From Neisseriaceae bacterium (GTDB lineage Bacteria > Pseudomonadota > Gammaproteobacteria > Burkholderiales > Neisseriaceae), in NCBI GenBank assembly GCA_017934045.1, contig JAGBKK010000024.1, forward strand, positions 1 through 64,000: a stretch of DNA of 64,000 bases. Reading direction: 5' to 3'. Below the pieces are notes generated by a model. That model made no database searches, was not told the DNA's origin, and saw only the letters and a program-made list of their open reading frames with translations. Position 1 is the first letter of the stretch. Every line of letters starts with the position of its first letter. Shown one piece after another: positions 15,968 through 60,154 of this stretch. A program made the translations under genes and the position numbers.

Positions 15968-16041
15968 TTTAAAATCCTTATGGTTAAAGAAAAGGCAACC
16001 TGAACGGCGTTCAGGCTGCCTGAAAAATAAAAAAACACAAA

Positions 16042-19000
16042 TTACATTTTGTGTTTTCTTGGTTTTGACAATGTCGGTTGTTGCATTTGCGGTTTAGGCT
16101 GTTGCGTTTGCGACTGCGTGAGTTGTTTCATCATCTGTTTGGCTTGTTCAAGTGGAATAGGTTTAGGTAAATTCAACTTACCGTCCTTTATTCGAGCCGA
16201 AACATATTGATAATAATGCTGCCACGCCAACATTTTTTTATCATTTTTTTCTCGTGCAATCGTTTGTGCCACAGTGTCTTGATACATTTTCAACCGCACC
16301 TTGTCTTGTCCATTCAAGGTTTTGGCAAGTGTTTTGTAGGTCTCTTTGGCGGCTAATAACTGCTGTTTCTGCACCGCATACGGTAAATTTTTTGATTTAC
16401 CCTGTTTTAGGCTACCTTTTTGGGGTGTTGCCACAGACGGCGTACGCATTGTATTAGCCATTGTTTGTACGCTATCAACAGCGTGTCGCACTTCGGACGG
16501 CGTTTCACCACCTGCAATACCGTTATGATGAATATCGGTAAAAGAGCGTTCAGCAGTTTCTTCACCTGATAACAAGTGATTATCGGTCGGCATATCAGAT
16601 ACCAAATTCAGCGTATTGCTGTTTTCTGACGCAACATTGGCTTTGAGTTGCTCAACTTCATCTCTAAACGCAGAATTTGTCTCCATTTTCAACGGCTGTT
16701 CAGGATTGTTCAGCATTTGTTTTACATCTGCCGTAGCCTGTTGCTTACGATTATCTATATCTGCTGTTTTTTCAACAGATTGCAAGCCTTTATCAATCAC
16801 ATAATTTTGTACGGCAACCAAACCCACCGCCGCCGCACCGCCAACCGCACCCCCTGCGGCGACACCTGCACCTATGGTTACAGCGTCTTTCACTTTCAAC
16901 GCCGTATAAACACCTTTGCGTGCCACGCTTGCGTCTTCATCAGGGCGTTTGCCAAAAATCGCCTCATCAACCTTTTGGGAGAGTTCGGCAGGATTTTGTT
17001 CAGGCTGCCCCATTAAGTCGTGTTTGATTAACTTTTCTTGTGGCAAGTCTTCCTGTTTGCCTTGTGCTTGTGGCACTTCTTGGGCTTTCTCGTATAACTC
17101 TGCTTGCCACTTCATTCTCTCACGCATTACTTCTTCTATAATCGGATTGCCGTCATCGTCTAACACAGTTTTGCCGTGTTCATCTTTGACTTCTTCCTCT
17201 ACTCGCACGGTTTCTTGTCCGACTTTTTTAAGCGAAATACGGTCGCCGTTATCAATGCCGCTTTCCTGAATGGCTCGTTCAATATCCACGCCCCAATAGG
17301 TTTTTTCTTCACCATTGGGTTTTTGAATGGTTGCGAAATAACTTTCATTGCCGTTTTCTTTGAACTGATACGGTGCTTTGCCGTGAGCCAATAAAATACC
17401 GCCTTTGAGTTTATCGGCGGTGTCTTGCTTGGTTTCTTGTTTGGGGCTGCCTGAAAGGTCTTTTTGCGGTGTTTTGTCTGCCTGTTTTTCCGCTTGTGGC
17501 GTATTTTCAGGCTGTGTTCCCTGTTTTTTGGCTTGTTCGACACTGTTCAAAGAGCGTTCTTCACGCATTCTTTCAAGCATTGCTTTGTCTTCTGGACTGG
17601 GCGAATAACCTTTGGTTTTAATGCCTTGACTTTCTGCCGCCAACCACGCTTGGCGTTTGAACTCACGATTACCGCTTAATTTAAGCGTTGTCCAACCTTT
17701 TGCTTTCGCTACTTCAACCATATCAGCAGCGGTTTGTGGGTCGTTTTTGGCAGTGGTTAATTTACTGCCTTTGTCGGTAAATAAAACAGTTTTGCCGTTT
17801 TCACTATCGACATAATCCACACGATGAGTTAATCGCAAGTTGGTTTTGGTATCTAAAAACTTGCGTTCAACCGCATTGTAGCGTTCAGACAAATCAGACG
17901 GCGGTGCTTCTGGCGGCGTTAATTTTGCCGTTTTGCTTTTTGCTGTGCGGATTGTTTCTTCAAGGCTATCACCTGCTTTATCAATGGTTTTTTTCTGTTC
18001 ATTATCAGGAAATTTACCTTGATTTTGGGCGATTGTTTGTTGATACTGTTGGTAATCTTTATCCACAGCCAATGCTATGTAATGTGGGTCTAAATTAGAA
18101 AAATGCGTATCAGCAACTTCTTCTCGCCCTTGTGTTTGTGGATTAACCGCACTCAACACAATTCGTTCTTGTGTTGGGTCAAAATGCAGCATTTCTTTGT
18201 TTTTACCATTCGGTAAATACATTACACTATCAAGGCTATTGTATTCACCATAGCCTTGATAATGCGTTTTCAATTCTTCAAAAACGGCGTTGGCTTTCTC
18301 TTTCGGCGTAGCAAAAACCGCTTGTGGTTTATTGATTTCTTCGGCGGTGATAATCTCATCACTTTCGCCAAAATAAATGCTGTTTTCTTCATTCAGGTTC
18401 TCTGAAATATCGGCTTGTCCCAAAACCTGACGGCGTTCGATTTGCAATTCATCAGTTTGACGGTCTAACTCGGCTTGCTTTGCGTAGATTTCTTCAAACT
18501 TTTTGTCGATTTCATCTAACTGTTCTTGCGTTAATTGAACTTGCAGATTATCCATCGCCTCTTTTTGCCTGTACATTTCATCTAACTTGTTTTGCCATTC
18601 GGCTTTTTGGCGATTGAGTTCGGCTTGCCGTTCGGCAAAATCTTTGTCGATTTGTGGCTTGGCAGATTGTTCAGGGCTGCCTGAAAGGTCTTTTTCAGTA
18701 TTATCAACTGCTTGTGTAATAGTTTCATCTACTTTTTGTGCAGTTTCGCCGTCAAGGTGCTTATGTTCCAAACCATTTTCAGGTTGCCAAGTGTCAGGTT
18801 GAAACTTATCAGGCGTAAAAGAACTTGCTTGTAAGCCTTGTTGTTGTTCGTCCATAGAATTTTCCTTTGAATTTGAATTTTCAGGTTGCCTGTTTTCATC
18901 AGATTGATTGATGGCAGGCAAAACAAAACCGCCTTGCGGCGGTCGTGGTTTTTCGTTGTCAGGACTTAACGATTTATCCTTATCTGTGGCGGTAACTTTG

Positions 19001-21777
19001 GTTTGCACTTGACCGTTTTTATCCACATAAATTTTGGCTTTATCGCCTACTTGAAGTGAAACGCTCAAATCTTGTTTATTCCACGCTTGGAAATAACGGC
19101 TGTTATCGGTAACTTGTTGAATAACAAAATTTTCCGTTTCATAGAAAACACGCCCATTGCTCATATCTTTGGGCGTTTCTAAACGCAGTACATTGTTGGG
19201 ATTATTGCCTTTCATTTCCCTAATGACTGCGTGAAGTTCTTTGGGGATAATTTCTGCCGTTGCAGTTCCTGTTTGATAAATTTGTCCGTTTCCTGAAATG
19301 ATTTCCTGAGCGATACGATTTCGGATTGAGACAAAATCATTTCCTTTGGATAAAACGACCGCCTCGCTGTTGGTGAGTTGGTTAATGCCATAATTAAACT
19401 CCTTTTGCCAATATTCGTTTAGTTCTTCGCCAAATTTATGATTGATATTGTGCAATATTTCAGGCGTGGGTGCAAGTTGCAAAGAGTGTTCTTTGGCACT
19501 TAACACCGCAACACCAATCACTTTACCGCCACGATTGTTGATATAGCCACGCAAAGACGCAACAGTGCCGCCTTGTATCAGTGTGTCATCAACAATCAGA
19601 TAATTGCGATTAGGCAAAACTTCACCTGCAAATGCAGGTTGAAACACCAAACGATAATCCGCACTTTTGCGTGTGCGTGCTACTTTGGTTGCCTGAACAA
19701 TATCCGTATGAACTTCCAATCCTAAACGGTCTGCCAGAACACGAGCAAAGACTTGTGGTATATGATTTTCACCTGCTTGTTCTAACGCATTAACAGGCAC
19801 AATCAGCGTATCTTTATCAATCGCAAAATTGCGTTTGATTTGCTCAACGGTATCATCAGTTAATGCGTATTGCACCATTTTTAAGGCTGCGATTGCGTCC
19901 CCTGATTTAGCGTCCTTGTAATTTGGCAAATCAATCAAATTGCCTTTTAAGTCGTTGGTAACGGCTTGGGGAAAGTCTTTCTCCCATTCGGCTCGTTCAG
20001 GGCGTGGCATTTCGTTATTCATTGTTACTGTCTCACTGTTTTGAGAAACAGTAAGTGTATTATTTTCAACTGCATTCAGGCTGCCTGAAACTTTACTCAT
20101 CACCGTGCCGTCCATATTTATATCAAATCTGGGCAATGCAATATGATTTAGCTCGGCAAAGCGTTGCCATTGTTGGCTGACACCGATTTGATTGATTAAC
20201 TCTTCAACAGCAATCCCTCGTTCAAAATGAATGGGGTGTTTGCCTTTCATCATTTCAATCAACTGTTCTTGAATGGCAAGGCTTTCTTCTTTGCCGTGAA
20301 TGCGTCCTGTCATTGAAAAGTGTTGCAAACTTTCAAAATTATGACGCAACAAGATATTGATATGCGGTATTTTATCGCTTTGTGCGGCAATATCGTGCAA
20401 TGCGGCTTTTTGGTGTTCAGGGGCGTAGATGATACCTAATGCCGTTGGGCTATCGGTAATCACAATATTAGCGTGATTTAATGCCGCTTGCTCACGGCGT
20501 AATTGTTCTCCTGTTACAAAAACTTGGTCTTTTAATTCATCGTTTCTGCCTTGATGAATTAACTCTGTTGCGTATTCGCTAACATAAACACAATCAATAC
20601 CGTTCTCTTGCAATAATGTCGTAAGGTTTTGTGCGGTGAAAGATTTACCTGTGGCAGGGCTGCCATACACATTGATAAGCAATTTATCTTGTGTATTCTC
20701 CGTAGCAATATTGTTCAAGTCTCGCAATGACGAAGTGTTATTCAGGCTGCCTGAAAGTGCTTTTGCCACACCGTCAATACCACGAATGGCTTGCAAATCA
20801 TTAAAATCCGTAGGTTTTTTACCGTTGGCTGCCTGAAATGCTTGGATTTCATCAGCGGTAAAATCAGGTATTATCACTTGGGCATTGTTGCCAAAAATTT
20901 CGGCAGCAATTTTGGCTGAATGTTCGCCTTTGCCGTTTTCGTCTTTATCGGCACAAAACACCACAGGGGCGTTGTGTTTAGCAACAAAGCCTTTCAAACT
21001 TTGCATTGCGGCTGGCAAATTACCTGCGTCAATCGCCATTACACACGGCTTGCCTGTGGCTTGCACAATACTTGCCGCCGTAGCAAAACCCTCTGCCACA
21101 AAAAACCCTTGCGGCATTAACGCACGGTTGCCAATGGTAATGGCACTGCCTTTTTTATCAATACCAGCATTAAATTTTTTGTCGCCGTCTGCTTTAATAA
21201 ATTGCAGCCCAACAATATTTCCCTTGTTTTTCAAAGGAACAACCAAAGAATTAAAGCGTGGGTGATAACGAATACTTTGCAAAACATTAGGGTCGCTAAT
21301 GCCTTTTTTCTGCAAATAGGGGTGATTGGCATTGATTGGTGTGGTTTTGTTTTTCCAAATATCATTCGCTTTTTGGGCAGCAATAACGGCTTTTTTTCGC
21401 CGTTCCTGTTCTTCTTTGGCGGCTCGTTTAGCATTTTGGCGATTGCGTTCGGCAATTTCTGCGGAACTCATCGGTTTTACATTCTGACGAACAAAACCAT
21501 TTTCTTTGGCTCTATTTACAAGGAAACCGATATTATTTTTGGTAATATCAGCACCACGCCACTGACTGTCGCAATCACTGGCTTTGTAGTTGTCCGCTCT
21601 CTTACTCCATTCAAAATACAGGGCTTTACCCTGTTCTCCAAATTCTGACTTTAATGCCGCCGCCATTTTGTACCAAATTTCACGGTCGGTGCTATCAATA
21701 TAAGTCAGCATTAAGCGAGCCTCTTTCAAAGTTGGCGGCACATATTCTTTTTGAGAATTGCGATTGTATTGAGCCAT
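16042..21777 (-). CDS. Giant primase-TOPRIM-P-loop-phosphoribosyltransferase polyvalent protein
   Basis: 1911 residues from the ATG at 21777 (AAAGGTG upstream). Order of parts: PriCT_2-like primase C-terminal domain (about 13-95, EIWYKMAAALKSEFG and DCDSQWRG); a CHC2-less TOPRIM primase segment (about 150-310, FFVAEGFATAASI and VVFCADKDENGKG); a P-loop NTPase (GSPATGKS, 372-379); a type I phosphoribosyltransferase with the PRPP loop LIVDDTLIQGGT (727-738); a coiled coil (about 1040-1120); an LPD7-like domain (about 1297-1400); a relaxase-C-terminus-like segment (LAHGKAPYQF to TYWGVDIERA, about 1460-1505); and a glycine/alanine membrane-like stretch (about 1633-1655). An internal ATG with AAAGGA lies at 18855. 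It probably primes the transferred strand in the recipient, as IncP TraC does; the nucleotide-metabolism parts are inference. Confidence 0.85.
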   Translation of the reverse strand: MAQYNRNSQKEYVPPTLKEARLMLTYIDSTDREIWYKMAAALKSEFGEQGKALYFEWSKRADNYKASDCDSQWRGADITKNNIGFLVNRAKENGFVRQNVKPMSSAEIAERNRQNAKRAAKEEQERRKKAVIAAQKANDIWKNKTTPINANHPYLQKKGISDPNVLQSIRYHPRFNSLVVPLKNKGNIVGLQFIKADGDKKFNAGIDKKGSAITIGNRALMPQGFFVAEGFATAASIVQATGKPCVMAIDAGNLPAAMQSLKGFVAKHNAPVVFCADKDENGKGEHSAKIAAEIFGNNAQVIIPDFTADEIQAFQAANGKKPTDFNDLQAIRGIDGVAKALSGSLNNTSSLRDLNNIATENTQDKLLINVYGSPATGKSFTAQNLTTLLQENGIDCVYVSEYATELIHQGRNDELKDQVFVTGEQLRREQAALNHANIVITDSPTALGIIYAPEHQKAALHDIAAQSDKIPHINILLRHNFESLQHFSMTGRIHGKEESLAIQEQLIEMMKGKHPIHFERGIAVEELINQIGVSQQWQRFAELNHIALPRFDINMDGTVMSKVSGSLNAVENNTLTVSQNSETVTMNNEMPRPERAEWEKDFPQAVTNDLKGNLIDLPNYKDAKSGDAIAALKMVQYALTDDTVEQIKRNFAIDKDTLIVPVNALEQAGENHIPQVFARVLADRLGLEVHTDIVQATKVARTRKSADYRLVFQPAFAGEVLPNRNYLIVDDTLIQGGTVASLRGYINNRGGKVIGVAVLSAKEHSLQLAPTPEILHNINHKFGEELNEYWQKEFNYGINQLTNSEAVVLSKGNDFVSIRNRIAQEIISGNGQIYQTGTATAEIIPKELHAVIREMKGNNPNNVLRLETPKDMSNGRVFYETENFVIQQVTDNSRYFQAWNKQDLSVSLQVGDKAKIYVDKNGQVQTKVTATDKDKSLSPDNEKPRPPQGGFVLPAINQSDENRQPENSNSKENSMDEQQQGLQASSFTPDKFQPDTWQPENGLEHKHLDGETAQKVDETITQAVDNTEKDLSGSPEQSAKPQIDKDFAERQAELNRQKAEWQNKLDEMYRQKEAMDNLQVQLTQEQLDEIDKKFEEIYAKQAELDRQTDELQIERRQVLGQADISENLNEENSIYFGESDEIITAEEINKPQAVFATPKEKANAVFEELKTHYQGYGEYNSLDSVMYLPNGKNKEMLHFDPTQERIVLSAVNPQTQGREEVADTHFSNLDPHYIALAVDKDYQQYQQTIAQNQGKFPDNEQKKTIDKAGDSLEETIRTAKSKTAKLTPPEAPPSDLSERYNAVERKFLDTKTNLRLTHRVDYVDSENGKTVLFTDKGSKLTTAKNDPQTAADMVEVAKAKGWTTLKLSGNREFKRQAWLAAESQGIKTKGYSPSPEDKAMLERMREERSLNSVEQAKKQGTQPENTPQAEKQADKTPQKDLSGSPKQETKQDTADKLKGGILLAHGKAPYQFKENGNESYFATIQKPNGEEKTYWGVDIERAIQESGIDNGDRISLKKVGQETVRVEEEVKDEHGKTVLDDDGNPIIEEVMRERMKWQAELYEKAQEVPQAQGKQEDLPQEKLIKHDLMGQPEQNPAELSQKVDEAIFGKRPDEDASVARKGVYTALKVKDAVTIGAGVAAGGAVGGAAAVGLVAVQNYVIDKGLQSVEKTADIDNRKQQATADVKQMLNNPEQPLKMETNSAFRDEVEQLKANVASENSNTLNLVSDMPTDNHLLSGEETAERSFTDIHHNGIAGGETPSEVRHAVDSVQTMANTMRTPSVATPQKGSLKQGKSKNLPYAVQKQQLLAAKETYKTLAKTLNGQDKVRLKMYQDTVAQTIAREKNDKKMLAWQHYYQYVSARIKDGKLNLPKPIPLEQAKQMMKQLTQSQTQQPKPQMQQPTLSKPRKHKM

Positions 21778-21796
21778 AATATCACCTTTACGCAAT

Positions 21797-21823
21797 AAAA
21801 AAATCCCTGAAAAACAGGGGATT
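21797..21823 (-). terminator. Terminator/attenuator hairpin just before the primase gene
   Basis: On the minus strand AATCCCCTG-TTTTT-CAGGGATT is followed by T7, and the primase ribosome-binding site begins only about 10 nt later. No promoter fits between hairpin and start codon, so transcription of the giant gene must read through this hairpin. Confidence 0.7.
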
Positions 21824-21894
21824 GAGAAAATGGGCGGCATTGTTTTTTGTCCGTAAATGAGAAGAACACCTTTTTTGCAAAATACAAAGAACAA

Positions 21895-22142
21895 TGCCTA
21901 AAAAGGCGGCGAAACTCTTTGAGGAAGAAAGTATTTGTTGAAAAGAAAGGATTAAGAGTTTCGCCAAAAAAGGTTAGCAAAGCCCAAAATAGGAAACGCA
22001 AACAAGAAAAGATAGGACTTTGCTAAAAAAAGCGTTTCAGGCTGCCTGAAAAGTTATTTCAAGGCAACCTGAAAGAATAAAAAAAGCCTGTGGAGATAAC
22101 AGGCTAAAAAGCGGAATAATCCGCAATGCTTTCAAACTAACT
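21895..22142. other. Region with two long-loop inverted repeats upstream of the primase gene
   Basis: Together with the leader of the primase gene, 365 bp lack a gene. A perfect 12-bp repeat GGCGAAACTCTT/AAGAGTTTCGCC lies at 21908-21919 and 21954-21965. A second, 11 of 12 matching, TTAGCAAAGCCC/GGACTTTGCTAA, lies at 21974-21985 and 22015-22026. On the minus strand each is followed by a CCTTTTT-type tract. An uptake-sequence pair follows at 22037-22072. Candidate roles are terminators, a regulatory RNA or part of oriT. Confidence 0.5.
22079..22105 (-). terminator. Terminator after virB10
   Basis: AGCCTG/CAGGCT stem (22085-22090 with 22100-22105) followed on the minus strand by a T7 tract; a small GCGG/CCGC hairpin lies just before it. 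It closes the virB7-virB10 block. Confidence 0.75.
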
Positions 22143-23438
22143 TTACGGCAATAGGCTATCGAACTCGGAAATATCCACTCGGTCATACACTTGGCTGAAA
22201 TCAATGTCTCGTGCCACCATAATGTTGAGCAATGCACCTTGATTGATTGTGCCTGTGGGCGGTATGTTGATTGAGTTGCGTAATGCCTCGGTTGCCATTT
22301 CGTCCATATTGTCGGCACTTTCTTCTAATGTGAAGTCATTAGATCCACTTTTACGGCTAATGCGTTTGGATAAACCGTTAGAAAAATCGCCAATAAGACT
22401 AATCATAATGCTGCCGCCAAAGCGTTTCCAAAAATGGTGATTAACCCACGCAGGATTACCGCTTGCACCTAATTGTCCGACACTTGGGCTATCAATATCC
22501 ACAATCACACCTTTTGGCGTTTCGGCTTGTGTCCAACGCACGGCTACTCGTGCTTGTCCTTGTAGCATTGCGGCGGTTTGTTCGCCCATAAAAATCGTAC
22601 CTCGTTCAAACAGAACGGTTTTGCCGTTGGCACTCCACACATTTTTGGTGGCTTGGCATTTGGTTAGTCCTGCGTGGTCGGTAACACTCTTGGTTACTAA
22701 AACACAAGGAATGGTTGTGCCTTTGGCAAGTAACAGCGTTCTATCGCCTCGTTTGCTTGCCACTCGTACCGCAAATGTTGTGCCTGTGAAATTCAAACTT
22801 CGTTCATTACTATTGCTTTCACTGCCAAAACCTTGTGGCACACCGCCGCCGTATGACGCTTGGGCTGTATTGCCTTGTTCAGGTTGCCCAATATTACTGC
22901 CGTCATTCACCAACACACCGCCGCCTAATCGCCGTTCAAGAATGGGATCGATTTTGGGTTCTTCGGCAGGTGGTGGTGCGTCAGGCATAGTTGTGTTTGA
23001 ATTATCAACAACAGGCATATTTGCATTTGTCGTCCCTGCGATTTGTGGCGACTGCGTTTGATTTTCACCTAAATCAATCTGCGGTTTAGGCGGCAATGTA
23101 TCAGGAAAAGTATGTCGTTTTACTTTTTCTGAACTTACTTCAACTTTTGCTTTTTCTACTTTTTGTTGTGCAGGTTTTTCTTTACCTTTCCAAGAAATAA
23201 AAGCAATAATCAAAAAAGCAAAAGCAACAAAAATACCCAAGCCGCCAATCACTAATTTAGCATTGTTTTTTGAGCTATCGCTTTGGTCTTGTGGTGCGGC
23301 TCGTCCGCCGTTTTCATCACCGTCTCCTTGTTGTTTGGAATGGTCAAGTTGTGTGTAATCCTTAACTTCCTCATTATTTTCTTCAACTGGTGCAATACTA
23401 TTATTTTCGTAATGTTTTGGGTCTAAATTGATACTCAT
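22143..23438 (-). CDS. virB10: VirB10/TrbI-family type IV secretion protein
   Basis: 431 residues. Cytoplasmic N-terminus, one membrane segment (about 61-83, LVIGGLGIFVAFAFLIIAFI), a proline-rich periplasmic linker (about 100-200) and the C-terminal beta-barrel domain with DRTLLLAKGTTIPCVLVTKS and the VFERGTIFMGEQ region. VirB10 spans the envelope and gates the channel. AGGAG precedes the ATG and is formed by the last codons of virB9 (2-bp gap), so the two are coupled. Confidence 0.95.
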   Translation of the reverse strand: MSINLDPKHYENNSIAPVEENNEEVKDYTQLDHSKQQGDGDENGGRAAPQDQSDSSKNNAKLVIGGLGIFVAFAFLIIAFISWKGKEKPAQQKVEKAKVEVSSEKVKRHTFPDTLPPKPQIDLGENQTQSPQIAGTTNANMPVVDNSNTTMPDAPPPAEEPKIDPILERRLGGGVLVNDGSNIGQPEQGNTAQASYGGGVPQGFGSESNSNERSLNFTGTTFAVRVASKRGDRTLLLAKGTTIPCVLVTKSVTDHAGLTKCQATKNVWSANGKTVLFERGTIFMGEQTAAMLQGQARVAVRWTQAETPKGVIVDIDSPSVGQLGASGNPAWVNHHFWKRFGGSIMISLIGDFSNGLSKRISRKSGSNDFTLEESADNMDEMATEALRNSINIPPTGTINQGALLNIMVARDIDFSQVYDRVDISEFDSLLP

Positions 23439-23439
23439 C

Positions 23440-24285
23440 TTATTCTTCTCCTTTCACCAACCGCACCGCATTGTTTTTGTCGGTATTTAAGCGATTAAAT
23501 TCACCTGTTTTGTAAGCACCGTTTCTAACACCCAAAACGCTTTTGCCTAAACGCAAAACAAAGTTTTCAGCAGTTTCGTGGATTACCAGTGTGTCATCTT
23601 CCAAATGCGTATTGACTAACATTTCAGAACCGTCAGGCATTGTTTTATACACCGCAGGTAAATCACGGTTATCGGCGTATTGAATATAGGTAAAGCGGTT
23701 ATCGTCCCACATTGCGGTGGGGGCGATTGCTTTATCGCCTTTACCGTAATACACATAATTGAGTGGCGTTTGATTGCCGTTTAAGCCGTATTTGATACGA
23801 AACTGCAAAGCTCTCGCTTGGCGGCGTGCGGCTAATAATTTTTCTTTGGCAATCTCATCAGGATAAGTAAAACGCAACAAATAAGTGGGCGGTGTGCAGA
23901 CTTTTTTGCCTTGTTTGTTGTAAGAACAACCTGCCAAACCTAAATCAAACACATAAGTGCGTTTATTGGTAATTACCGTTAGATTTGTATTCAAACCTTT
24001 TTCGGCAGCAGGTTTGAAAATCAAATTATTACCTTTGGTTTCCATTGCCCAAGCTTGATTATCACCTGTAACCACAACACCTTGCTCGGCACTCTCGCCC
24101 TTATCTAATTGTACTGTTACCGTATAACCAATCTTGGCACGAATTTTGACAACATTGTCTTCATCGTATTCCACATATTGAATGCGACCGTCCTTTTCCG
24201 TTCCCTCTGGAATAACGGCGGCAGAAAGGCTGCCTGAAAGGCATAAAAAAACCGCCAACGGCGGTAATATGAGTTGTTTTTTCAT
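23440..24285 (-). CDS. virB9: VirB9/TrbG-family type IV secretion protein
   Basis: 281 residues from the ATG at 24285 (AAGGA upstream). A signal peptide ends at SLSAA. The N-terminal part (KIRAKIGYTVTVQLDKGE, AWAMETKGNNLIFKPA, TNLTVITNKRTYVFDL) and the C-terminal part (FTYIQYADNRDLPAVY, LGKSVLGVRNGAY) match VirB9. It forms the outer-membrane core with VirB7 and VirB10. The signal peptide is partly written by an uptake sequence (SGSL). Cysteines at about 139 and 146 could pair with VirB7. Confidence 0.95.
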   Translation of the reverse strand: MKKQLILPPLAVFLCLSGSLSAAVIPEGTEKDGRIQYVEYDEDNVVKIRAKIGYTVTVQLDKGESAEQGVVVTGDNQAWAMETKGNNLIFKPAAEKGLNTNLTVITNKRTYVFDLGLAGCSYNKQGKKVCTPPTYLLRFTYPDEIAKEKLLAARRQARALQFRIKYGLNGNQTPLNYVYYGKGDKAIAPTAMWDDNRFTYIQYADNRDLPAVYKTMPDGSEMLVNTHLEDDTLVIHETAENFVLRLGKSVLGVRNGAYKTGEFNRLNTDKNNAVRLVKGEE

Positions 24286-24345
24286 AAAACTATCCTTGTG
24301 AAAATTCAAGTTCAGGCTGCCTGAAAAATACAGCCTGATTGTGTG

Positions 24346-24750
24346 TTAGAAAGGATTTTCATCATCATCAAGTGGCGGTTTTTCAGGTGTATTATTATTT
24401 CCTGTATTCACTTTTTTCCGCAAAATTTCAACTTGATTACCAATAATCTCAAAGGCTACTGCCTTTGTACCTATTTTGGTTTCAAATTGACGAACACGAA
24501 TTTCACCCTCAACAAAAATATTATCGCCCATACCGATATATTCCTTGATGAAATTCACCGTTTTACCGTAAAAACAAATCGTATGAAAAGTTGTATTGGT
24601 TTTGACTTCACCTGTTTCTTTGTCGATATAGTCTTTATGTGTTGCCATACTGAAACGACAAGCAGGACGATTTTCATCACCGTTGATATAAGCAACTTCA
24701 ATTTCCGTACTCACAAAACCCATTAACATAACACGGTTCATATCTGCCAT
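24346..24750 (-). CDS. ssb: Single-stranded DNA-binding protein
   Basis: 134 residues. OB-fold start MNRVMLMGFVSTEIEV, then CRFSMATHKDY, HTICFYGKTVNFIKEYIGMGDNIFVEGEIRVRQFE, and the acidic tip DDDENPF that recruits partner proteins. It probably coats transferred single strands in the recipient. AAGGAG precedes the ATG. Its place between virB9 and a ParA-like gene, inside the secretion block, is unusual. Confidence 0.95.
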   Translation of the reverse strand: MADMNRVMLMGFVSTEIEVAYINGDENRPACRFSMATHKDYIDKETGEVKTNTTFHTICFYGKTVNFIKEYIGMGDNIFVEGEIRVRQFETKIGTKAVAFEIIGNQVEILRKKVNTGNNNTPEKPPLDDDENPF

Positions 24751-24761
24751 TTTGATACTCC

Positions 24762-25499
24762 TTATGCCACAACTTCATTATTTTGCTGAAACAACTTCAT
24801 CAACGACAACTGATTAGCAATGCTGTTATAAAAAATCTTAATGCGTTGCTTGCTCATCAGTTGAAAATCTAATGATTTCATCACTTCGGCAATGGTTAGA
24901 TGATTTTCAGTCATTCGTTTAATATCCTTACCAAAAGTATCAGGATTGCGTTCTTCGATATGAATAACGCTTACAATTTTGTCTTTGTTGCCTTGAATAA
25001 TCTTCTCAACCTGTCCGTCTAACAAGATTTTTCCCATATGGTCATTTAACCACACCACAATTTTAACTGGCAGCGATTGTAAGATTGAAACAAGTCCTGC
25101 AAGCGTATCGTTCAAACCTTGTCCGCCTTGCAGTGGAATATGAAAATACACTTCCGCACCGCTATCTTTCAACATATCCACAGCGGCATTTTCTTTCAAA
25201 TACGACATTAAAGGAATAAAAGTGGCTGCACCATTATCAATAATGGCAGAACCGTCTTCACTCAATAGCGTATTCATCAGAATATCAAATTTACCGCTAT
25301 CAATATTATTGTGTTCGTCCAAAATATCGATCGTTTCAACATTCAACGCTTGATAACGGCTAAAAGTCTGATTAACAGGGTCGGTATCGAAACATAGCAA
25401 TTTGTCTTTGCGTTCATTGAAAAATTGAGCCATAACAGCGGCAATAAAAGATTTACCTACACCGCCTTTACCTTGCACAATGAAATGAATGTCTTGCAT
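24762..25499 (-). CDS. ParA/TraL-like P-loop ATPase
   Basis: 245 residues from the ATG at 25499 (GGAG 9 nt upstream; the earlier TTG is rejected). The deviant Walker A motif QGKGGVGKSFIAAVMAQF is near the N-terminus, and CFDTDPVNQTFSRYQAL follows. It resembles the short ParA-type ATPases of conjugative plasmids (TraL/StbB), which help position or transfer DNA. It lies between virB8 and ssb in the same operon. Confidence 0.75.
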   Translation of the reverse strand: MQDIHFIVQGKGGVGKSFIAAVMAQFFNERKDKLLCFDTDPVNQTFSRYQALNVETIDILDEHNNIDSGKFDILMNTLLSEDGSAIIDNGAATFIPLMSYLKENAAVDMLKDSGAEVYFHIPLQGGQGLNDTLAGLVSILQSLPVKIVVWLNDHMGKILLDGQVEKIIQGNKDKIVSVIHIEERNPDTFGKDIKRMTENHLTIAEVMKSLDFQLMSKQRIKIFYNSIANQLSLMKLFQQNNEVVA

Positions 25500-25520
25500 T
25501 TTTGTAATCTCCAAAAAAAT

Positions 25521-26264
25521 TTACGGTAACAATTCAGGGTCGGCACGATACGAAGTTACTTGAAAACCCAATGGATTAACCAAAAAATCTTCTTCTCGTG
25601 TGGGTTGATTTTGGTAAGAAAACGCAATGGTGGCAATATAGTTGAGCGTTTCTCTATCACCTGTATTTTGCGGCACAGTTGGTGCTTTTGTTTTAGAAAA
25701 CCGCACCTGTGCGGTATCGCCAACAAACGCAATATTGCGAATTTTTACTGAAACTCGATAATTGTTTTCTAACACTTTATCAGGGGACGCAGGACTGCTG
25801 TAAATTGCCGAAAAACGAGCTTGTTCATCTTCCGATGACAACAGCATAGTTGTATCGTAAGTTGCTTGAATGGTTTGAAAATCATAAGTTTCACGATTGC
25901 GTACATAAGTGGCTAACCAATATTTATCCATTACTTCTTGGTTTTCAACCGTTGCATTTTTGCGTGTAGCAACCACATCAGTAACGCCTGTATTGTTATC
26001 TACACGCACAACAAACGGCTCAACTGTTTTCAATGGTGTTAAACCTGCCAATGCAATCGCTAAACACACCACAGCCACACAAGCCGCACCTGCAACACCT
26101 AAAAATACTTTGGATTGCAATTTTGTGCGTTCAATATCTGATTTCGCAAATTTCTCCGCCTCTCGCACAAAAGCACTGGCAGCATTTTGCGGTTTTGCGT
26201 TATCCCAATCCATTTCTTTGGGTGGCGGTGGATTATCTGCCTGTTTTCTTTTACCAAAAGCCAT
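25521..26264 (-). CDS. virB8: VirB8-family type IV secretion protein
   Basis: 247 residues. Cytoplasmic N-terminus, one membrane segment (about 53-75, VFLGVAGAACVAVVCLAIALAG), LTPLKTVEPFVVRVDNNTG, then the NTF2-like periplasmic domain with YVRNRETYDFQTIQATYD and the C-terminal NPLGFQVTSYRADPE. VirB8 is an assembly platform at the inner membrane. Its ATG shares one base with the stop codon of the VirB7-like gene upstream. Confidence 0.95.
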   Translation of the reverse strand: MAFGKRKQADNPPPPKEMDWDNAKPQNAASAFVREAEKFAKSDIERTKLQSKVFLGVAGAACVAVVCLAIALAGLTPLKTVEPFVVRVDNNTGVTDVVATRKNATVENQEVMDKYWLATYVRNRETYDFQTIQATYDTTMLLSSEDEQARFSAIYSSPASPDKVLENNYRVSVKIRNIAFVGDTAQVRFSKTKAPTVPQNTGDRETLNYIATIAFSYQNQPTREEDFLVNPLGFQVTSYRADPELLP

Positions 26265-27168: not shown

Positions 27169-27621
27169 TTATTTATGTCTCCAATTTTCAGGCTTAATAA
27201 TCTTGCCTTTATCCGCCCACAGCCCACGCCGTCCTTTTTGTGCTTGTCGCATTGCGGCGGCGTATTCTGCGTTGTTTGAATAGCGTTCATAGTGCCAAGC
27301 GTAACCTTGTTCTATCATCGCCAAATTCACATTTGTGCTGCCTGAATAAACAGTGGCAACGGTTCTGCCGTATTTATCCTGTTTTGTGTTTTTTAGCGTA
27401 ACCATTTGCTTATAAATCAACTTATTCAGGGCTTTTCGTGCTTGGTTGCCGTATGCTTGTCCGCTTTCAGGTGCGTCAATATCCGCTAATCGCACTTGCA
27501 TATTGCGTCCTTGTTTGCGGCAAGTAAAAGTGTCGCCGTCTGATACTTTCACAGCCACACAAACCGTATCAGCCAATGCAAAAACAGGTACGAAACAGGT
27601 GATTAAAAATAATTGTTTCAT
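27169..27621 (-). CDS. Secreted thermonuclease-family (SNase) protein of the ICE
   Basis: 150 residues. Signal peptide to ALADT. The SNase fold motifs are present: VSDGDTFTCR, MQVRLADIDAPE, YGNQARKAL, YGRTVATVYSG, NLAMIEQGYAWHYERYS and GLWA. The usual catalytic Arg-Glu-Arg positions appear kept (VRLADIDAPE, DKYGRT). It would act on DNA or RNA in the periplasm or outside. Similar nucleases sit on IncP-like and other conjugative plasmids. A chromosomal homologue is at 54020-54532. The start overlaps the stop of the upstream gene (ATGA). Confidence 0.9.
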   Translation of the reverse strand: MKQLFLITCFVPVFALADTVCVAVKVSDGDTFTCRKQGRNMQVRLADIDAPESGQAYGNQARKALNKLIYKQMVTLKNTKQDKYGRTVATVYSGSTNVNLAMIEQGYAWHYERYSNNAEYAAAMRQAQKGRRGLWADKGKIIKPENWRHK

Positions 27622-30684: not shown

Positions 30685-31623
30685 TTAGTGAAATAAGTCG
30701 TGCTGTAAGCCGCCAAATTCCTCGGTTAAATCATCGAGCATTTTGCCGATATAGAACATTGTCAAACCTTTACTATCATCACCAAATTGTGGATTTAAGT
30801 CTTCTAACTGCCTTAAATCAATTAGTTTGAAAGAAGAAAAAACCAAATTCGGCGAAAAATCAAATTTGAAAATGTCTTGATATTCGCAGCCAACCTTTTC
30901 AATATCCAAAGAAAAGCAATCAATCAGATTGTGGATATTCTGACCTAAAATATCATCGTGAATAATATTGATTTTTTCATTGCTCTCTTTATTTTTTGCA
31001 ACTAACCGCTTTTGAAAAGAGAACTTGTCCAAATCTTCACGAGTTTTAATTTTCTGCGGCAGAATATCAAATGGCGATTGCTCTGTTAAGGCGTAACGGA
31101 AACCGATTGCAAAAACACGCTCCTCAATCCACTTTAATATTTCGGCTACCTTGTTTTTATTTGAATTATCCACAATGAGATAATTTGTGCCGTATTTGTT
31201 TTTAATAATATAGCAACGATAAAAACTGCTCTTACACAATGCTTTTTTTCGCAATTCCTTTTCAAAGTTGGTTTTAATTTCTAACTGCCGTTCTTTGGAA
31301 ACTTTTAACTTATATTCTTCAACAGATGAATATGTGCTGATGATATATTTTTCAAATTCGTTTTCCAAAATACCTTTGGATAAAACCTTTTCCTCTTTTT
31401 TGATAATAAAATGCTTGTAATAATGAGCAGGATATAAAAACATTTTTTTATCTTGCAAAAAAGGGAACTTTTCAAAAACAATCGGGTGTGTATCAAACTC
31501 AATAAATCCCATTGTGCTGTTTTCATTCTCACCAATCGGCTTAAATTGCCATTTACTCAAAGCCTGATTAAAATCAAACAGATTAAATTCAGGAACAATA
31601 AAGACGCAAAAACTGCTAATCAT
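30685..31623 (-). CDS. RdgC-like recombination-associated protein
   Basis: 312 residues. The layout follows RdgC: FNQALSKWQFKPIGENENSTMGFIE near the start (compare the family's ALAKHRF-P-G--E--S-GWV), a charged helix, KNKYGTNYLIVDNSNKNKVAEIL (compare the 'VDT-S-KRAE-L' segment), and the C-terminal FYIGKMLDDLTEEFGG (compare 'L--L---L-EALGG'). RdgC is a ring-shaped DNA-binding protein that modulates RecA. On a mobile element it could protect incoming DNA. Divergent, so the family call is moderate. GAAAGGAAATT precedes the ATG. Confidence 0.6.
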   Translation of the reverse strand: MISSFCVFIVPEFNLFDFNQALSKWQFKPIGENENSTMGFIEFDTHPIVFEKFPFLQDKKMFLYPAHYYKHFIIKKEEKVLSKGILENEFEKYIISTYSSVEEYKLKVSKERQLEIKTNFEKELRKKALCKSSFYRCYIIKNKYGTNYLIVDNSNKNKVAEILKWIEERVFAIGFRYALTEQSPFDILPQKIKTREDLDKFSFQKRLVAKNKESNEKINIIHDDILGQNIHNLIDCFSLDIEKVGCEYQDIFKFDFSPNLVFSSFKLIDLRQLEDLNPQFGDDSKGLTMFYIGKMLDDLTEEFGGLQHDLFH

Positions 31624-32647: not shown

Positions 32648-33127
32648 TTAATAAATTTTAATAGCATAATATTCTTCACACATAAAAACACCGAGAAAGT
32701 GGCATTTTTGTTTTATATTTTTTATCGAAGAAAATCCACTATTTTTTAACAAACCAACGATTTGATTGTATTCACTTTGGCGACTAAATGAAAAAAAGTC
32801 ATTAGGCATAGTAATTTCAACCATATCGTTTTCATATTGTCTATCAACAGTATTCAGAATTTCGTTAATGCGTTCTTTAACATATTGATTTTTAATATTA
32901 ACGCTTTTGTTTTTTAATTGTGCGTGATATTCCATTCTGTGTTTTTTTGCGGTGCTGATTATTTCAATTTGTTTATCAATAGCGTGATTTTGAAATTGCA
33001 CAAGTCCCGAAAAAAGAAGAATTATTGTCAGTACAGGTAGATAAAAACCAAATTCACCAGTCTGCCACATTAAAATAGCAACCGCCAAAAAAGCAACTAC
33101 TGTTAAAAGCGTAATTAACATAGACAT
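32648..33127 (-). CDS. Membrane protein sharing a C-terminal domain with 40672-41637
   Basis: 159 residues. Two N-terminal membrane segments (LLTVVAFLAVAILMW and FYLPVLTIILLFSGLV), then a soluble domain of about 90 residues. That domain (LKNKSVNIKNQYVKERINEI, then PNDFFSFSRQSEYNQIVGLLKNSGF and EYYAIKIY) is plainly related to the C-terminus of 40672-41637 (LKNKSIHIENQYVKDIIDEV, PKDFNSPNRKNEYDETMNLL, EYSAIRIW). Function unknown; the repeat use of one domain on different membrane anchors suggests a sensor or binding module. Confidence 0.65.
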   Translation of the reverse strand: MSMLITLLTVVAFLAVAILMWQTGEFGFYLPVLTIILLFSGLVQFQNHAIDKQIEIISTAKKHRMEYHAQLKNKSVNIKNQYVKERINEILNTVDRQYENDMVEITMPNDFFSFSRQSEYNQIVGLLKNSGFSSIKNIKQKCHFLGVFMCEEYYAIKIY

Positions 33128-38985: not shown

Positions 38986-39226
38986 CTTCTATTCTTCTCA
39001 TTTCCAACACATACGGCAAATTGCCATAGCGAATGTTGTAACGCCCAGTTTGTTCTTTATCGTTTTCAATCTTTTGCATAAACCACTGAAACACCACGCT
39101 CAATACCTCATCGGTTAAATCAACAGGCTTTCCAGTCGCACGATAAACACCGTTGGTATTCTCTTTAACAGACACCCAATGTATTTGATGAGTTATCGGT
39201 GTGAGTAGTAGTTTTTTCATCATCAT
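38972..39226 (-). CDS. Hypothetical protein
   Basis: 84 residues. The start lies 62 bp inside the upstream ATPase-like gene. Soluble (VDLTDEVLSVVFQWFMQKIEND). No family recognised. The overlap suggests a translational link with the decoy-like protein at 39165-39713. Confidence 0.5.
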   Translation of the reverse strand: MMMKKLLLTPITHQIHWVSVKENTNGVYRATGKPVDLTDEVLSVVFQWFMQKIENDKEQTGRYNIRYGNLPYVLEMRRIEDKTA

Positions 39227-39713
39227 TCCATTTCATTTCGTAAAGTAAATTAAACTCGTCCATAATCGTATCGCTTGCCATATCCACAGGCTCTGCGTTA
39301 ATTAAACGAGTTTCGTTATCAAGCATATCTGTTACCGTATCCCCTGATACAAAATATGCCTGAACTTCGTCAAAGTTCAGCCAATATCGCTCGGGTATTA
39401 CTTCATTTATCTTTTCTCGCAAACCTTTTCTTTTCTTCTTGTCATTTGCCAAATCGTAGGCGTAAATCAAATTGTTCAGTATCGTGTAAAAATAGGGACT
39501 ATTCGTCCATACAAGCAAAGAACTATCCGCTTTACTGCTGTGATAAAGGCTCACTAATTGCCTAACTTTTTCAACTTGCAACAGCGGAAAATCGTTTGCG
39601 TCAAATTGATGATAACAAGGCTTTTTTCCCTGTTCTTTACATTGCTTTTCAAACTTTTCTCTGACTTTGAAGTAAGCACTGCCGTTTTCATAAAATGCAA
39701 CACAGAAAAACAT
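39165..39713 (-). CDS. Homologue of only the C-terminal part of an OLD/AAA-type ATPase
   Basis: 182 residues from the ATG at 39713 (GGAG 8 nt upstream). Residues about 40-164 align with residues about 281-404 of the chromosomal ATPase at 58416-59630: TNSPYFYTILNNLIYAYDL versus THSPYILTVVNNLLYADEL, and both end in LYEMKWN. About half the residues over the last 90 are identical by eye. It lacks the nucleotide-binding N-terminal half, the acidic Walker B and the switch histidine (N71 instead of H). It therefore cannot hydrolyse ATP alone. Possible dominant-negative partner or immunity factor; also possibly an independent family or a degraded gene. Confidence 0.75.
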   Translation of the reverse strand: MFFCVAFYENGSAYFKVREKFEKQCKEQGKKPCYHQFDANDFPLLQVEKVRQLVSLYHSSKADSSLLVWTNSPYFYTILNNLIYAYDLANDKKKRKGLREKINEVIPERYWLNFDEVQAYFVSGDTVTDMLDNETRLINAEPVDMASDTIMDEFNLLYEMKWNDDEKTTTHTDNSSNTLGVC

Positions 39714-39835
39714 ATTCAAGTCTCCATAAAAAATAGGCAACCAAAAGGCTACCTGAACTATGTTTTAAGAACTGTAACTATTTGTTTTATCATTAAAAAC
39801 AAATAGTTAAATAGGGCGAAGAACTCCTTTTTTGG

Positions 39836-39984
39836 TATAATAAAGCGTTATCTCGCAGTTACATTTCCTGTTAGAGCAGGAAAATAATAGTAACCACTTG
39901 ATAACGATTAACTTTCAAACAAACCAAGAAGAGTGAAAGGTTTTGTTTGATTTTTTACCAACCAACTTTTCATAAGGAGTTCTT
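39836..39984 (+). promoter_or_regulatory. Promoter and structured leader RNA before the plus-strand gene
   Basis: Extended -10 TGGTATAAT ends at 39841. The predicted transcript then starts with nested stems: CGTTATC/GATAACG (39846-39852, 39900-39906), GTTAC/GTAAC (39858-39862, 39890-39894) and TTTCCTG/CAGGAAA (39864-39870, 39877-39883, 6-nt loop). Two mutually exclusive or pseudoknotting stems follow: CTTTCA/TGAAAG (39912-39917, 39934-39939) and CAAACAAACC/GGTTTTGTTTG (39916-39925, 39939-39949). AAGGAG lies at 39974-39979. A 12-bp copy of the ribosome-binding region in inverse orientation (GAAGAACTCCTT, 39818-39829) precedes the promoter. Confidence 0.5.
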
Positions 39985-39992
39985 CAATAAAC

Positions 39993-40648: not shown

Positions 40649-40673
40649 AAAACCGCTTAAATTAAGCGGTTTT
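40649..40673. terminator. Bidirectional terminator between convergent genes
   Basis: AAAACCGCTTAA/TTAAGCGGTTTT stem with A and T tracts on both sides, between the plus-strand gene ending at 40643 and the minus-strand gene ending at 40672. Confidence 0.8.
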
Positions 40674-41637
40674 AATCCCAAATCCGAATAGCGGAATATT
40701 CATTATTACAACCACTATTACCGTGAAGACAATCACGGTCTGTATAATAATAATCGACTTTAAGAAAACCACTATCTTTTAATAAGTTCATTGTTTCATC
40801 GTATTCATTTTTACGATTAGGCGAGTTAAAATCTTTTGGGACAAAAATTTCAATAACAATTTTTTCATCAACCTGCAAATAAACTTGTTTTATTACTTCA
40901 TCAATTATATCTTTAACATATTGATTTTCAATATGAATACTTTTATTTTTTAACTCAACATAATTAAACATTCGCTGTTTAACCGATTTACTTTGCTTTT
41001 GTGCTATTTTCTTTGTGCCGTCTATTGCTGAAATGGAAGTCAAAACACCCAAAATAAATGCAAAAACAATTAAAATCTTATTCAAATCTTTATTGATTTT
41101 TTCAGAAAGCAAAAGAGTAACAATGATAAACAGACACCCCAAAGCAGAACCAAAGAATAAACCATAATTCATTGTTTCGATATTCAATGAATGATAAAAT
41201 TTAATTATTCCAAAAATAAGAATAAATAACAAAAATAATGTTACCAAAAATAGAAAAAGAGCAACAATAATACTTATAGGTTGCTCGGGAATTTCTTCCT
41301 TTTGTTCTTGTTCTTTTTCTTCATTAGTTGTCCGTAATGATTTTAATTGAGCGGTTTTATCTTTTGCAAAAAATAATTTTAGACAATCTGCAATAAAATC
41401 AATCATACTTATTAAAAAAAAGAAACAACCTGCAACTCCCGTACCCAAACCCACAGTATAATTGTGATTAGACAGCAATGCTAATGTTGGCATTTGAGTA
41501 AAATCTGCATATCCCCTAATATATAAAGAGACAGGAAAGGATAAAAAGAATACAGTGATAAGAACAACTTTTAATAATTGACCTGCCAAATATTTTGCAA
41601 TTTCGTGATTTTGCGTATTAACCACTTCGTTTTTCAT
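40672..41637 (-). CDS. Multi-pass membrane protein with a C-terminal domain shared with 32648-33127
   Basis: 321 residues. About six membrane segments in the first 215 residues with a charged KTAQLKSLRTTNEEKEQEQ loop, then the soluble domain (LKNKSIHIENQYVKDIIDEV, VPKDFNSPNRKNEYDETMNLL, CNNEYSAIRIWD) also found at 32648-33127. A close cysteine pair (DCLHGNSGC) lies near the end. TGGGG precedes the ATG. Function unknown. Confidence 0.65.
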   Translation of the reverse strand: MKNEVVNTQNHEIAKYLAGQLLKVVLITVFFLSFPVSLYIRGYADFTQMPTLALLSNHNYTVGLGTGVAGCFFFLISMIDFIADCLKLFFAKDKTAQLKSLRTTNEEKEQEQKEEIPEQPISIIVALFLFLVTLFLLFILIFGIIKFYHSLNIETMNYGLFFGSALGCLFIIVTLLLSEKINKDLNKILIVFAFILGVLTSISAIDGTKKIAQKQSKSVKQRMFNYVELKNKSIHIENQYVKDIIDEVIKQVYLQVDEKIVIEIFVPKDFNSPNRKNEYDETMNLLKDSGFLKVDYYYTDRDCLHGNSGCNNEYSAIRIWD

Positions 41638-54019: not shown

Positions 54020-54532
54020 ATGATTTTTCTGCACCGCACACAAAGCCGCAACAATCGCCTATTTTTAATGCTGATTGTTGTGGTTGCGTGTTTTCAGGCA
54101 GCCTGCACAACGCCTGCAAACGCTACGAGTTGCACGGTGATTAAAGTTTCAGACGGCGATTCTTTTACCTGTCGAATGAAGAGCGGCAAAAAGCAATTTA
54201 TCAGAATGTCAGGCATAGACGCACCTGAAATCACCCAAGCCTATGGCAAAAACGCCCGTAATGCCTTAAAAACCGCCCTACTCGGCAAAAAAGTGCGTTT
54301 AGAAAATATTTCCCAAGACCGCTACGGCAGAACGCTGGCTACGGTTTATTTAGGCAACAAAGACCAAAATCTACAAATGATCAAACAAGGCAATGCGTGG
54401 GTTTATCGGCGTTATAATAAAAATCCACACTATATTCAAGCCGAACAAATCGCACGAGAACAACGATTGGGCTTATGGCAGAAAAATAATCCAGTCTATC
54501 CAGAAGATTATCGGCACACAAATAAACATTGA
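54020..54532 (+). CDS. Thermonuclease-family (SNase) lipoprotein
   Basis: 170 residues, N-terminal hydrophobic segment ending in FQAAC, a lipobox. SNase motifs VSDGDSFTCR, IRMSGIDAPEITQAYGKNARNAL, DRYGRTLATVYLG and QGNAWVYRRYNKNP. Homologous to the ICE nuclease at 27169-27621. Starts one base after the ldcA stop. Confidence 0.88.
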   Translation: MIFLHRTQSRNNRLFLMLIVVVACFQAACTTPANATSCTVIKVSDGDSFTCRMKSGKKQFIRMSGIDAPEITQAYGKNARNALKTALLGKKVRLENISQDRYGRTLATVYLGNKDQNLQMIKQGNAWVYRRYNKNPHYIQAEQIAREQRLGLWQKNNPVYPEDYRHTNKH

Positions 54533-58313: not shown

Positions 58314-58415
58314 CAAGTTCGGAGAACGGATTTTACAAAACCTTTTCAGGCTGCCTGAAACTTGCGTATAATCCCCAAAATCACCCTTTCAACCGCTTTT
58401 TTTAAGAGAAAAAAC

Positions 58416-59630
58416 ATGCAAAAACTGATTATCAAAAATTTAGGTCCGATTAAAAACTGCGAAATGGAAGTTCGCCCCTTTACCATTTTTATAGGTGAAA
58501 GCGGCAGCGGCAAAAGCATTTTGTTGCGGACGATTAGTATGTTGAAGTGGGTTTATAAAAAAATGCACCAAAATAAGTTATTTCAAGACATGGGCATAAA
58601 GCATAGTAATCATTTTGATTTATCAAAAATATCAAAAGAATCTATGTTAGATGACTATATTGATAACAACACTTATATTGAATTTTTAATAAATAATAAA
58701 CCATTAATTATTATAGCAAATAAAAAGTTAAAATCAGAATACGATAATATTCCCATATCTCAATTTTTATTAAGTAAAATTTTGTTTTTAAATGAAAATA
58801 GAACTGTTATCCCTGAAGTCTTGTCATCGTTTTCAGGTCGAGGAGTAAATTTTTCTTACTATACTATGGAAATCATTCAAGAATTTCGTAAGGCATTTGA
58901 CATAATAGGAAAAGATTTTGAAATTGAATCTATACAGGATATTAAATTAGACAGTAAAAAAACGAGATATGGGTATGAACAAATTTATCTCAATCGTAAT
59001 AGTGTAGAAATTAAATTCGAAAACACCAGTTCAGGAGAAAAAAGTGTATCAATTATTGAATTATTAACTTATTATTTTGCAAAACATTATGATTTTATTC
59101 AAAATATTCCTGACGCAATTAGAATGTTGTTAGATATTAGATTTGATAAAAAATTATTTTCCGAATTATCTACGAGTAAAAATCATGGTCAAATGTTATT
59201 GTATGATGATGAAGAATACAGTTTTAAAAAATCCCTTACACTTTTAATCGAAGAACCCGAATCCAACTTATTTCCAACCAACCAAAAGGCTTTAACTTGT
59301 TTTCTATCGTCTTTACGGAAAAAGAAAAATAATCCTGAAATTATTTTTTCAACCCACAGTCCTTATATTTTAACTGTGGTGAATAATTTATTGTATGCTG
59401 ATGAATTAGTAAATAAAAACAGTGAATTAAAAGAAGAAGTTAATAAAGTTATTCCTGAAAAATCTCAATTAAGTATTGATGATTTATCGGCTTATGTGGT
59501 TGAAAATGGAACAGTAGAAAGTATTATTGATACGGAAACTAACTTAATCAATGGTGAATATATTGATAGAGTTTCTGATAAACTAATGAGCGATTTTGAT
59601 AAACTTTATGAGATGAAATGGAACAAATGA
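58416..59630 (+). CDS. AAA/ABC-type ATPase, probable defence-system component
   Basis: 404 residues from the ATG at 58416. Walker A GESGSGKS (27-34), ABC-type signature TSSGEKS (about 204-210), Walker B TLLIEEPESNLFP (about 275-286) and switch STHSPYIL (His 314). The plan is that of AAA_15/OLD-like ATPases without a Toprim domain. AT-rich, lacking uptake sequences in the coding part, unlike its neighbours. A TATAAT lies at 58367-58372. The stop overlaps the next gene (ATGA). The C-terminal third is homologous to the ICE protein 39165-39713. Defence function is inferred from family and pairing. Confidence 0.8.
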   Translation: MQKLIIKNLGPIKNCEMEVRPFTIFIGESGSGKSILLRTISMLKWVYKKMHQNKLFQDMGIKHSNHFDLSKISKESMLDDYIDNNTYIEFLINNKPLIIIANKKLKSEYDNIPISQFLLSKILFLNENRTVIPEVLSSFSGRGVNFSYYTMEIIQEFRKAFDIIGKDFEIESIQDIKLDSKKTRYGYEQIYLNRNSVEIKFENTSSGEKSVSIIELLTYYFAKHYDFIQNIPDAIRMLLDIRFDKKLFSELSTSKNHGQMLLYDDEEYSFKKSLTLLIEEPESNLFPTNQKALTCFLSSLRKKKNNPEIIFSTHSPYILTVVNNLLYADELVNKNSELKEEVNKVIPEKSQLSIDDLSAYVVENGTVESIIDTETNLINGEYIDRVSDKLMSDFDKLYEMKWNK

Positions 59631-60154
59631 AAAGATTATTAGACTATCATTCTTTAAAAGAGAATAAAAGAAACGATTGTGTAGAACAGGATGGAATATC
59701 ATGTTCTAATTGTAATGGTCGTTTGTTTAATAATAAAATTTCTTGCGAAGAAAAAGGGAAAACGCTACAGTTTTCTTGCAATGGTTATTCTTTTTATAAA
59801 ATTAAGTTAGATGACAACGACCGATATAGTTTTTTAAAAGATATAAAACGCTGTGATTTTATTATTATATCTGAAGAATTAACAAAAATTGCTTTATGGG
59901 TTGAATTAAAAAAAGGAGGAGAGGAGGGTATAAATGACGCATTAGAACAACTTGGAAACTCAATAATTATGTTTGGGAGAAATATTCAAAACAAGTATGC
60001 AGCTATTGTTTGTTCAAGATTTCCTAAAAGTGGTAGTAGTACTACTCTCTATAAAGAAAAATGTAAAAAAAAATATGATACTTTACTATTTATTGAAACA
60101 AGACTATTAAATCTCAAATACAATCCTAATGATAACACCATATCAAAAACTTAA
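59627..60154 (+). CDS. Zinc-finger protein with PD-(D/E)XK-like nuclease motif, partner of the ATPase
   Basis: 175 residues from the ATG at 59627, in ATGA overlap with the ATPase stop (an ATG nine bases earlier is also open). Cysteines C26-x2-C29, C40 and C51 could bind zinc. A possible nuclease core: RCDFIII with D77 and IALWVELKKGG with E93-L-K95, the D...ExK order of PD-(D/E)XK enzymes. An adjacent helix-forming stretch (INDALEQLGNSIIMF) fits that fold. Together with the ATPase it resembles ATPase-nuclease defence pairs such as Septu in layout, though the nuclease type differs. Not matched to a named system. Confidence 0.6.
   Translation: MKRLLDYHSLKENKRNDCVEQDGISCSNCNGRLFNNKISCEEKGKTLQFSCNGYSFYKIKLDDNDRYSFLKDIKRCDFIIISEELTKIALWVELKKGGEEGINDALEQLGNSIIMFGRNIQNKYAAIVCSRFPKSGSSTTLYKEKCKKKYDTLLFIETRLLNLKYNPNDNTISKT

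Follow-up and report, generated by a model that had tools for sequence, protein, structure and literature searches.

In the window considered here (the whole stretch of 64,000 nucleotides analysed from a Neisseriaceae contig), a conjugative element (ICE) encodes a 182-residue protein related to a putative defence ATPase of the same genome, and this ICE protein is a structured pseudo-ATPase whose active site has been specifically erased and whose C-terminal part has been retained. Judging from its sequence, it may represent a domesticated, catalytically dead mini-ATPase that descended from a PDC-M29-type ATPase and that would act through its preserved tail as a decoy in trans, an idea for and against which we consider the balance to be about even. 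The gene and the parts of its product are the following:

39165-39713, minus strand: ICE-encoded pseudo-ATPase, the main feature (182 aa, ATG at 39713)
39720-39725, minus strand: ribosome-binding-like GGAGAC, a few bases 5' of that ATG
39615-39713, minus strand: residues 1-33, predicted as a strand and a helix with the beginning of a further strand (DSSP of the model)
39576-39614, minus strand: degenerate Walker B segment, residues 34-46, YHQFDANDFPLLQ (E279H, E280Q, P281F, E282D and L285D relative to the family)
39501-39503, minus strand: Asn71 replacing the invariant switch His (TNSPY for THSPY; alignment with the family)
39225-39431, minus strand: kept linker and C-terminal domain, residues 95-163, last motif LYEMKWN (34/70 residues identical to the resident ATPase P0002)
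39168-39224, minus strand: extra 19-residue tail, residues 164-182 (pLDDT about 45), overlapping the P0004 gene
38972-39226, minus strand: P0004, a DUF7446 protein of 84 aa (Pfam DUF7446, E 2e-07, above cut-off)

Upstream of the gene, a perfect 14-base inverted repeat (39775-39809) is followed by a terminator-like hairpin (39735-39754) placed between the repeat and the ribosome-binding site; the leader RNA folds better than 200/200 shuffles (z -3.6), and the repeat and the hairpin are possibly an operator plus attenuator. The divergent intergenic region also contains GAAGAACTCCTT and its reverse complement AAGGAGTTCTTC (39821-39832 and 39975-39986, ~140 bases apart), the second copy of the pair resembling the ribosome-binding region of the plus-strand gene.

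Homology to the resident ATPase-partner pair

The chromosomal locus to which the ICE protein is related comprises these features:

58416-59630, plus strand: resident ATPase P0002, 404 aa, ATPase motifs all intact (PADLOC PDC-M29A, Pfam AAA_21 and AAA_15)
59618-60154, plus strand: partner P0003, PD-(D/E)XK-nuclease-like, 178 aa (residue pattern across partners)
58381-60217, plus strand: AT-rich insertion carrying the ATPase-nuclease pair, 1.8 kb, 27% GC; the sister genome G059 has here a gap of ~40 bases

P0002 matches the PDC-M29A profile over its whole length (E 6.8e-38, residues 1-400 to model positions 1-406 of 410). As for the partner, the alignment of ten proteins adjoining this ATPase revealed invariant D65, C79, D80, E96-L97-K98 and Q111, with which P0003 aligns and from which we infer a PD-(D/E)XK nuclease fold for it; Pfam support for this fold comes from a sub-threshold PDDEXK_9 match of one relative only, and P0003 itself matches PDC-M47B alone, and weakly (E 4.3e-05). 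The partner of a related ATPase (L083) matches PDC-M29B (E 1.9e-07), and this match, together with the residue pattern of the partners, would place the resident pair in the PDC-M29 type, so that it can be regarded as a candidate defence system. The same ATPase-partner anatomy was also observed in prophage contigs, plasmids and other genomes, including the viral contigs L049, L050 and L051, which carry the complete pair, 38-42% identical to its resident counterpart, and, in two of the three, an endonuclease-like gene directly upstream of it. The sister species (G059) lacks the insertion. Close to the resident pair and before mnmE lies a gene for an Abi_C-domain protein (abortive infection C-terminal; 60929-61765, E 9.4e-09), perhaps a second defence gene of this locus.

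The sequence-only reading had aligned about 125 residues of the ICE protein with the C-terminal third of the chromosomal ATPase, and BLASTP bore this out: residues 38-163 match P0002 residues 282-403, both ending in an identical LYEMKWN, with 52 of 126 positions identical (41%) and 79 of 126 similar (E 2e-28). The PADLOC profile PDC-M29A, built independently of both proteins, matches the ICE protein as well (E 7.4e-07, model positions 281-368 of 410); the two matches together indicate homology and not chance, and the C-terminal domain of the PDC-M29A family is thus present in the ICE protein, with 34 of 70 residues of the linker and C-terminal part identical to P0002.

P0002 displays the motifs GESGSGKS, SSGEKS, EEPE and THSPY. 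None of Walker A, the SSG signature, the EEPE of Walker B and the switch His persists in the ICE protein, each being absent or replaced, and the middle region of the ATPase is missing. The same reading had described a protein without Walker A and with Asn for the switch His, and had considered the acidic Walker B lost; all of this is correct, since TNSPY replaces THSPY and HQFD stands for EEPE, D38 (at the position of E282) being the one acidic residue left.

Selective loss of the catalytic residues and predicted fold

The conservation of the ICE protein was evaluated against 23 full-length relatives, in all of which (23/23) five Walker B columns are invariant. All six invariant catalytic-loop positions are changed (E279H, E280Q, P281F, E282D, L285D and H314N) and the other conserved positions are retained in 18 of 23 cases (Fisher p 0.001), although these counts (0/6 versus 18/23) come from a single sequence and the analyst picked the six catalytic columns from known motifs. 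A similar partition emerges from the comparison with P0002: the Walker B zone is identical at 6 of 32 positions (19%), whereas the linker and C-terminal part (P0002 residues 334-403) reaches the 49% given by the 34/70 above (p 0.005). The closest orthologues, L049 and L051, lean the opposite way, with 20-21 of 33 residues identical to P0002 in the Walker B zone (about 62%) and 29-30 of 70 in the linker and C-terminal part (about 42%). Moreover, residues common to the ICE protein and P0002 and absent in L049 or L051 number 22 (vs. 5-8), and 19 of these 22 sit in the linker and C-terminal part.

This pattern bears on the possibility that the ICE protein is a decaying remnant, that is, that an ICE-borne pair lost its nuclease together with two thirds of the ATPase, counted from the N-terminus, and that the rest is non-functional. 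Decay would not be expected to leave scaffold and C-terminal residues in place and yet remove all the catalytic ones (p 0.001); besides, the open reading frame is intact and preceded by a ribosome-binding site, and no trace of the missing parts of the ATPase or of the nuclease lies alongside. The features of a pseudogene are therefore not those observed, the catalytic positions being lost, the other conserved columns largely retained and the missing N-terminal part not nearby. Indeed, remains of that part just upstream, which the sequence-only reading had named among what would refute its proposal, are lacking in the ICE, where a tblastn search with P0002 residues 1-275 detected no remnant upstream of the gene (best E 0.03). 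In favor of decay, only a single copy of the stand-alone protein is known, its Walker B zone has diverged further than that of any functional member, and a truly split, more distant ATPase gene exists in the same bacterial family. The 19-residue read-through tail, which extends past the end of the ATPase family and overlaps the P0004 gene, could also be, with that overlap, a sign of decay. However, the split gene (genome G022, same bacterial family; L008, 1315-2690) is unlike the ICE case: it is broken by a frameshift or stop into adjoining frames of 300 and 139 aa, and its Walker B acids and switch His are intact across the halves. On the whole, we consider a decaying remnant rather unlikely.

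The predicted structure agrees with a folded protein. The AlphaFold2 model, built from six sequences, is one compact domain (pLDDT 80.3, pTM 0.73), and the 37 residues preceding the homologous match are predicted to be a strand-helix-strand unit of the same fold and not a random leader (DSSP: E3-8, H13-27, E31-37). In VIA structural alignments, residue 1 of the model falls shortly before what we take to be the P-loop positions of GajA, KaiC and MutS, and residues 1-33 occupy the place of the P-loop strand and helix in solved P-loop ATPases. An origin of residues 1-37 from a worn P-loop was considered and discarded: the ungapped register was about the fifth best of 260 and the local alignment gave p 0.47, so that, this sequence homology test being negative, the placement is kept as topology only. 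The model matches GajA with Z 6.1 (99 residues, rmsd 4.4), the best Z among P-loop ATPases being 7.1, and a match of this order (Z 6) is only a general fold resemblance at most. Foldseek with the model retrieved no PDB match below E 0.001; small phage proteins that it found in the viral library (AR9, PspYZU05) were rejected as relatives, their genomes giving no profile match. The predicted structure of the full ATPase P0002 was unusable (pLDDT 43).

A further possibility is that the fold has been repurposed as a scaffold that works with the overlapping DUF7446 neighbour, in a function unrelated to defence. P0004 starts before the pseudo-ATPase gene has ended, which suggests a possible translational coupling, and the two genes are alike in composition. 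This explanation leaves the retention of the P0002-specific C-terminal residues unaccounted for and relies on a domain, DUF7446, without known function, and it appears to us quite improbable. No relatives of P0004 were found in plasmids or phages.

Origin, distribution and the conjugative element

According to the sequence-only reading, the ICE carries a copied half of the resident ATPase; this part of it did not hold, since both the tree and the composition point to an older split and to a long residence in the ICE. In a tree of 24 rows the ICE protein occupies one of the longer branches, in a group with P0002 and the prophage orthologues (83/83); the test also allows a sister relationship of the ICE protein and P0002 alone (p 0.30), and a smaller tree paired the two (80/86). 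The GC3 of the pseudo-ATPase gene (0.37) falls within that of the ICE backbone (0.34-0.38), versus 0.23 for P0002 and 0.17 for P0003, and suggests a long residence in the ICE. This ICE-like composition and the AT-rich nature of a resident insertion absent from the sister species argue against a fresh copy of the resident gene, and a recent copy was accordingly rejected, the tree joining the ICE protein to P0002 and the prophage orthologues together; the pseudo-ATPase is more likely an old ICE gene.

The search for homologues covered 83 genomes at the family level, 398 for the phylum, 399 for the order and 369 for the class (the samples overlap, giving about 1,200 different genomes), and the phylum search, when repeated around another genome, returned identical genomes. 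Within these genomes, phage and plasmid records and viral contigs, no other stand-alone copy was found, and every other relative of this ATPase subfamily in the genomes and in the phage, plasmid and viral collections is full length; the ICE protein is thus a singleton in these collections. The check proposed earlier, whether homologues lacking the ATPase half occur on other mobile elements, gave full-length relatives only elsewhere, no stand-alone copy on the mobile elements searched and no related ICE for comparison. Close relatives of the ICE protein were likewise absent from genome contigs, viral contigs and plasmids, and the two phage records matched, MT838931 and MT836320, encode full-length ATPases and the partner gene.

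The element itself can be recognized from its conjugation genes:

10116-26264, minus strand: VirD4, VirB4, VirB10, VirB9, SSB, ParA and VirB8 (Pfam)

An SLT transglycosylase is encoded as well, these genes being on one strand with the pseudo-ATPase, and the homologues of VirD4, VirB4, VirB8, VirB9, VirB10, SLT, SSB and ParA identify the element as conjugative. Apart from uptake-sequence repeats and short matches, the DNA of its accessory region has no counterpart in the 83 family genomes. Two accessory genes (32648-33127 and 40672-41637) share a C-terminal domain (LKNKS...NQYVK...), their DNA being 67% similar over ~190 bases; the ICE also encodes an RdgC-like protein (30685-31623, Pfam RdgC, E 3e-14), and staphylococcal-nuclease-like proteins are encoded both on the ICE (27169-27621, Pfam SNase) and on the chromosome (54020-54532, by eye).

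The gene content of the ICE is relevant to another explanation, in which the protein is a self-immunity or regulatory subunit, an antitoxin-like restraint of the PDC-M29 system of its own or of a partner element, now without its own ICE target. Such a subunit would have the same anatomy and surface as a decoy, and the C-terminal match to P0002 exceeds the expectation from the tree. The conjugative region reaches the contig start, so that an ATPase-nuclease pair of the ICE itself might lie on a missing part. However, no such pair was found on the ICE portion within the window, nor was a precedent in the about 1,200 genomes, and we regard this explanation as decidedly improbable.

A possible decoy and its relation to known systems

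A remaining question concerns what the ICE protein might do. The sequence-only reading had proposed a decoy or dominant-negative role, of which the stand-alone intact reading frame, the predicted fold, the erased active site, the kept C-terminal part and the intact resident target stand, and recurrence on other mobile elements was not found. Indeed, a homologue of a defence component, devoid of the catalytic residues, is encoded alone on a mobile element. A decoy is preferred because the catalytic loss is selective, the C-terminal part is P0002-like, a compact fold is predicted, no N-terminal remnant exists and the reading frame is intact, and also because of the ICE-like composition, of the intact candidate target pair in the same genome and of the analogy in domain order with OLD. 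The ATPase of OLD-family proteins is continued at its C-terminus by the nuclease (Toprim) domain (PMC10568477), which by analogy makes the C-terminal part of a split ATPase a plausible docking site for the nuclease.

If so, the retained C-terminal part would correspond to the surface used by the ATPase for recruiting its separate nuclease or for self-pairing. The ICE protein might occupy this surface in trans and tie up the nuclease (or the ATPase) in unproductive complexes. Such dead complexes would prevent the defence from firing, both on entry of the ICE into a cell carrying a PDC-M29-type system and during its residence there. Binding to PDC-M29 components and inhibition of defence are thus what we would infer for the ICE protein. 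Two points temper this decoy model: the lack of a second stand-alone homologue means no recurrence, which counts against it, and the ICE gene may predate the arrival of the resident pair, in which case their co-residence may be due to chance.

The ICE protein is homologous to the C-terminal part of PDC-M29A, and the resident pair shares the two-gene anatomy of PDC-M29; the ICE protein is nevertheless no working member of that type, as it lacks Walker A, the SSG middle region, the Walker B glutamates, the switch His and an adjoining nuclease. By profile, the resident ATPase belongs to the same superfamily as the OLD-family/AAA_21 proteins (Old, GajA of Gabija, PtuA of Septu and AriA of PARIS), and it is with GajA that the ICE protein model aligns (Z 6.1, as above); those proteins, however, are complete ATPases more than twice as long as the ICE protein, from which the ATPase motifs are missing. 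Defence-derived counter-defence proteins have been described, such as the Cas4 homologues of archaeal viruses and a phage Cas9 with an inactivated RuvC, and inhibitors derived from the defence's own parts are called rare among anti-CRISPRs (PMC11656645). If our interpretation is right, the likeness lies in a crippled homologue that a mobile element sets in competition with a defence component, and the difference in the parent, here the OLD-like ATPase of a non-CRISPR pair, and in the putative nature of the inhibition.

A dead OLD-like mini-ATPase acting as a defence inhibitor was not found in the open-access literature searched. We tentatively suggest, at somewhat short of an even chance, that the ICE has domesticated a miniaturised, dead OLD-like ATPase for anti-defence, this protein capturing the nuclease of PDC-M29-type systems or poisoning their ATPase, outside CRISPR-Cas. 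Counter-defence built from the defence's own parts is expected on evolutionary grounds; if this suggestion is true, a dead mini-ATPase on an ICE would extend that route to the large OLD-like ATPase-nuclease class and would single out the ATPase C-terminal part as what matters for nuclease coupling. It also suggests a rule for further searches, namely to look for short mobile-element proteins with similarity to a defence ATPase's tail and with their catalytic residues erased.
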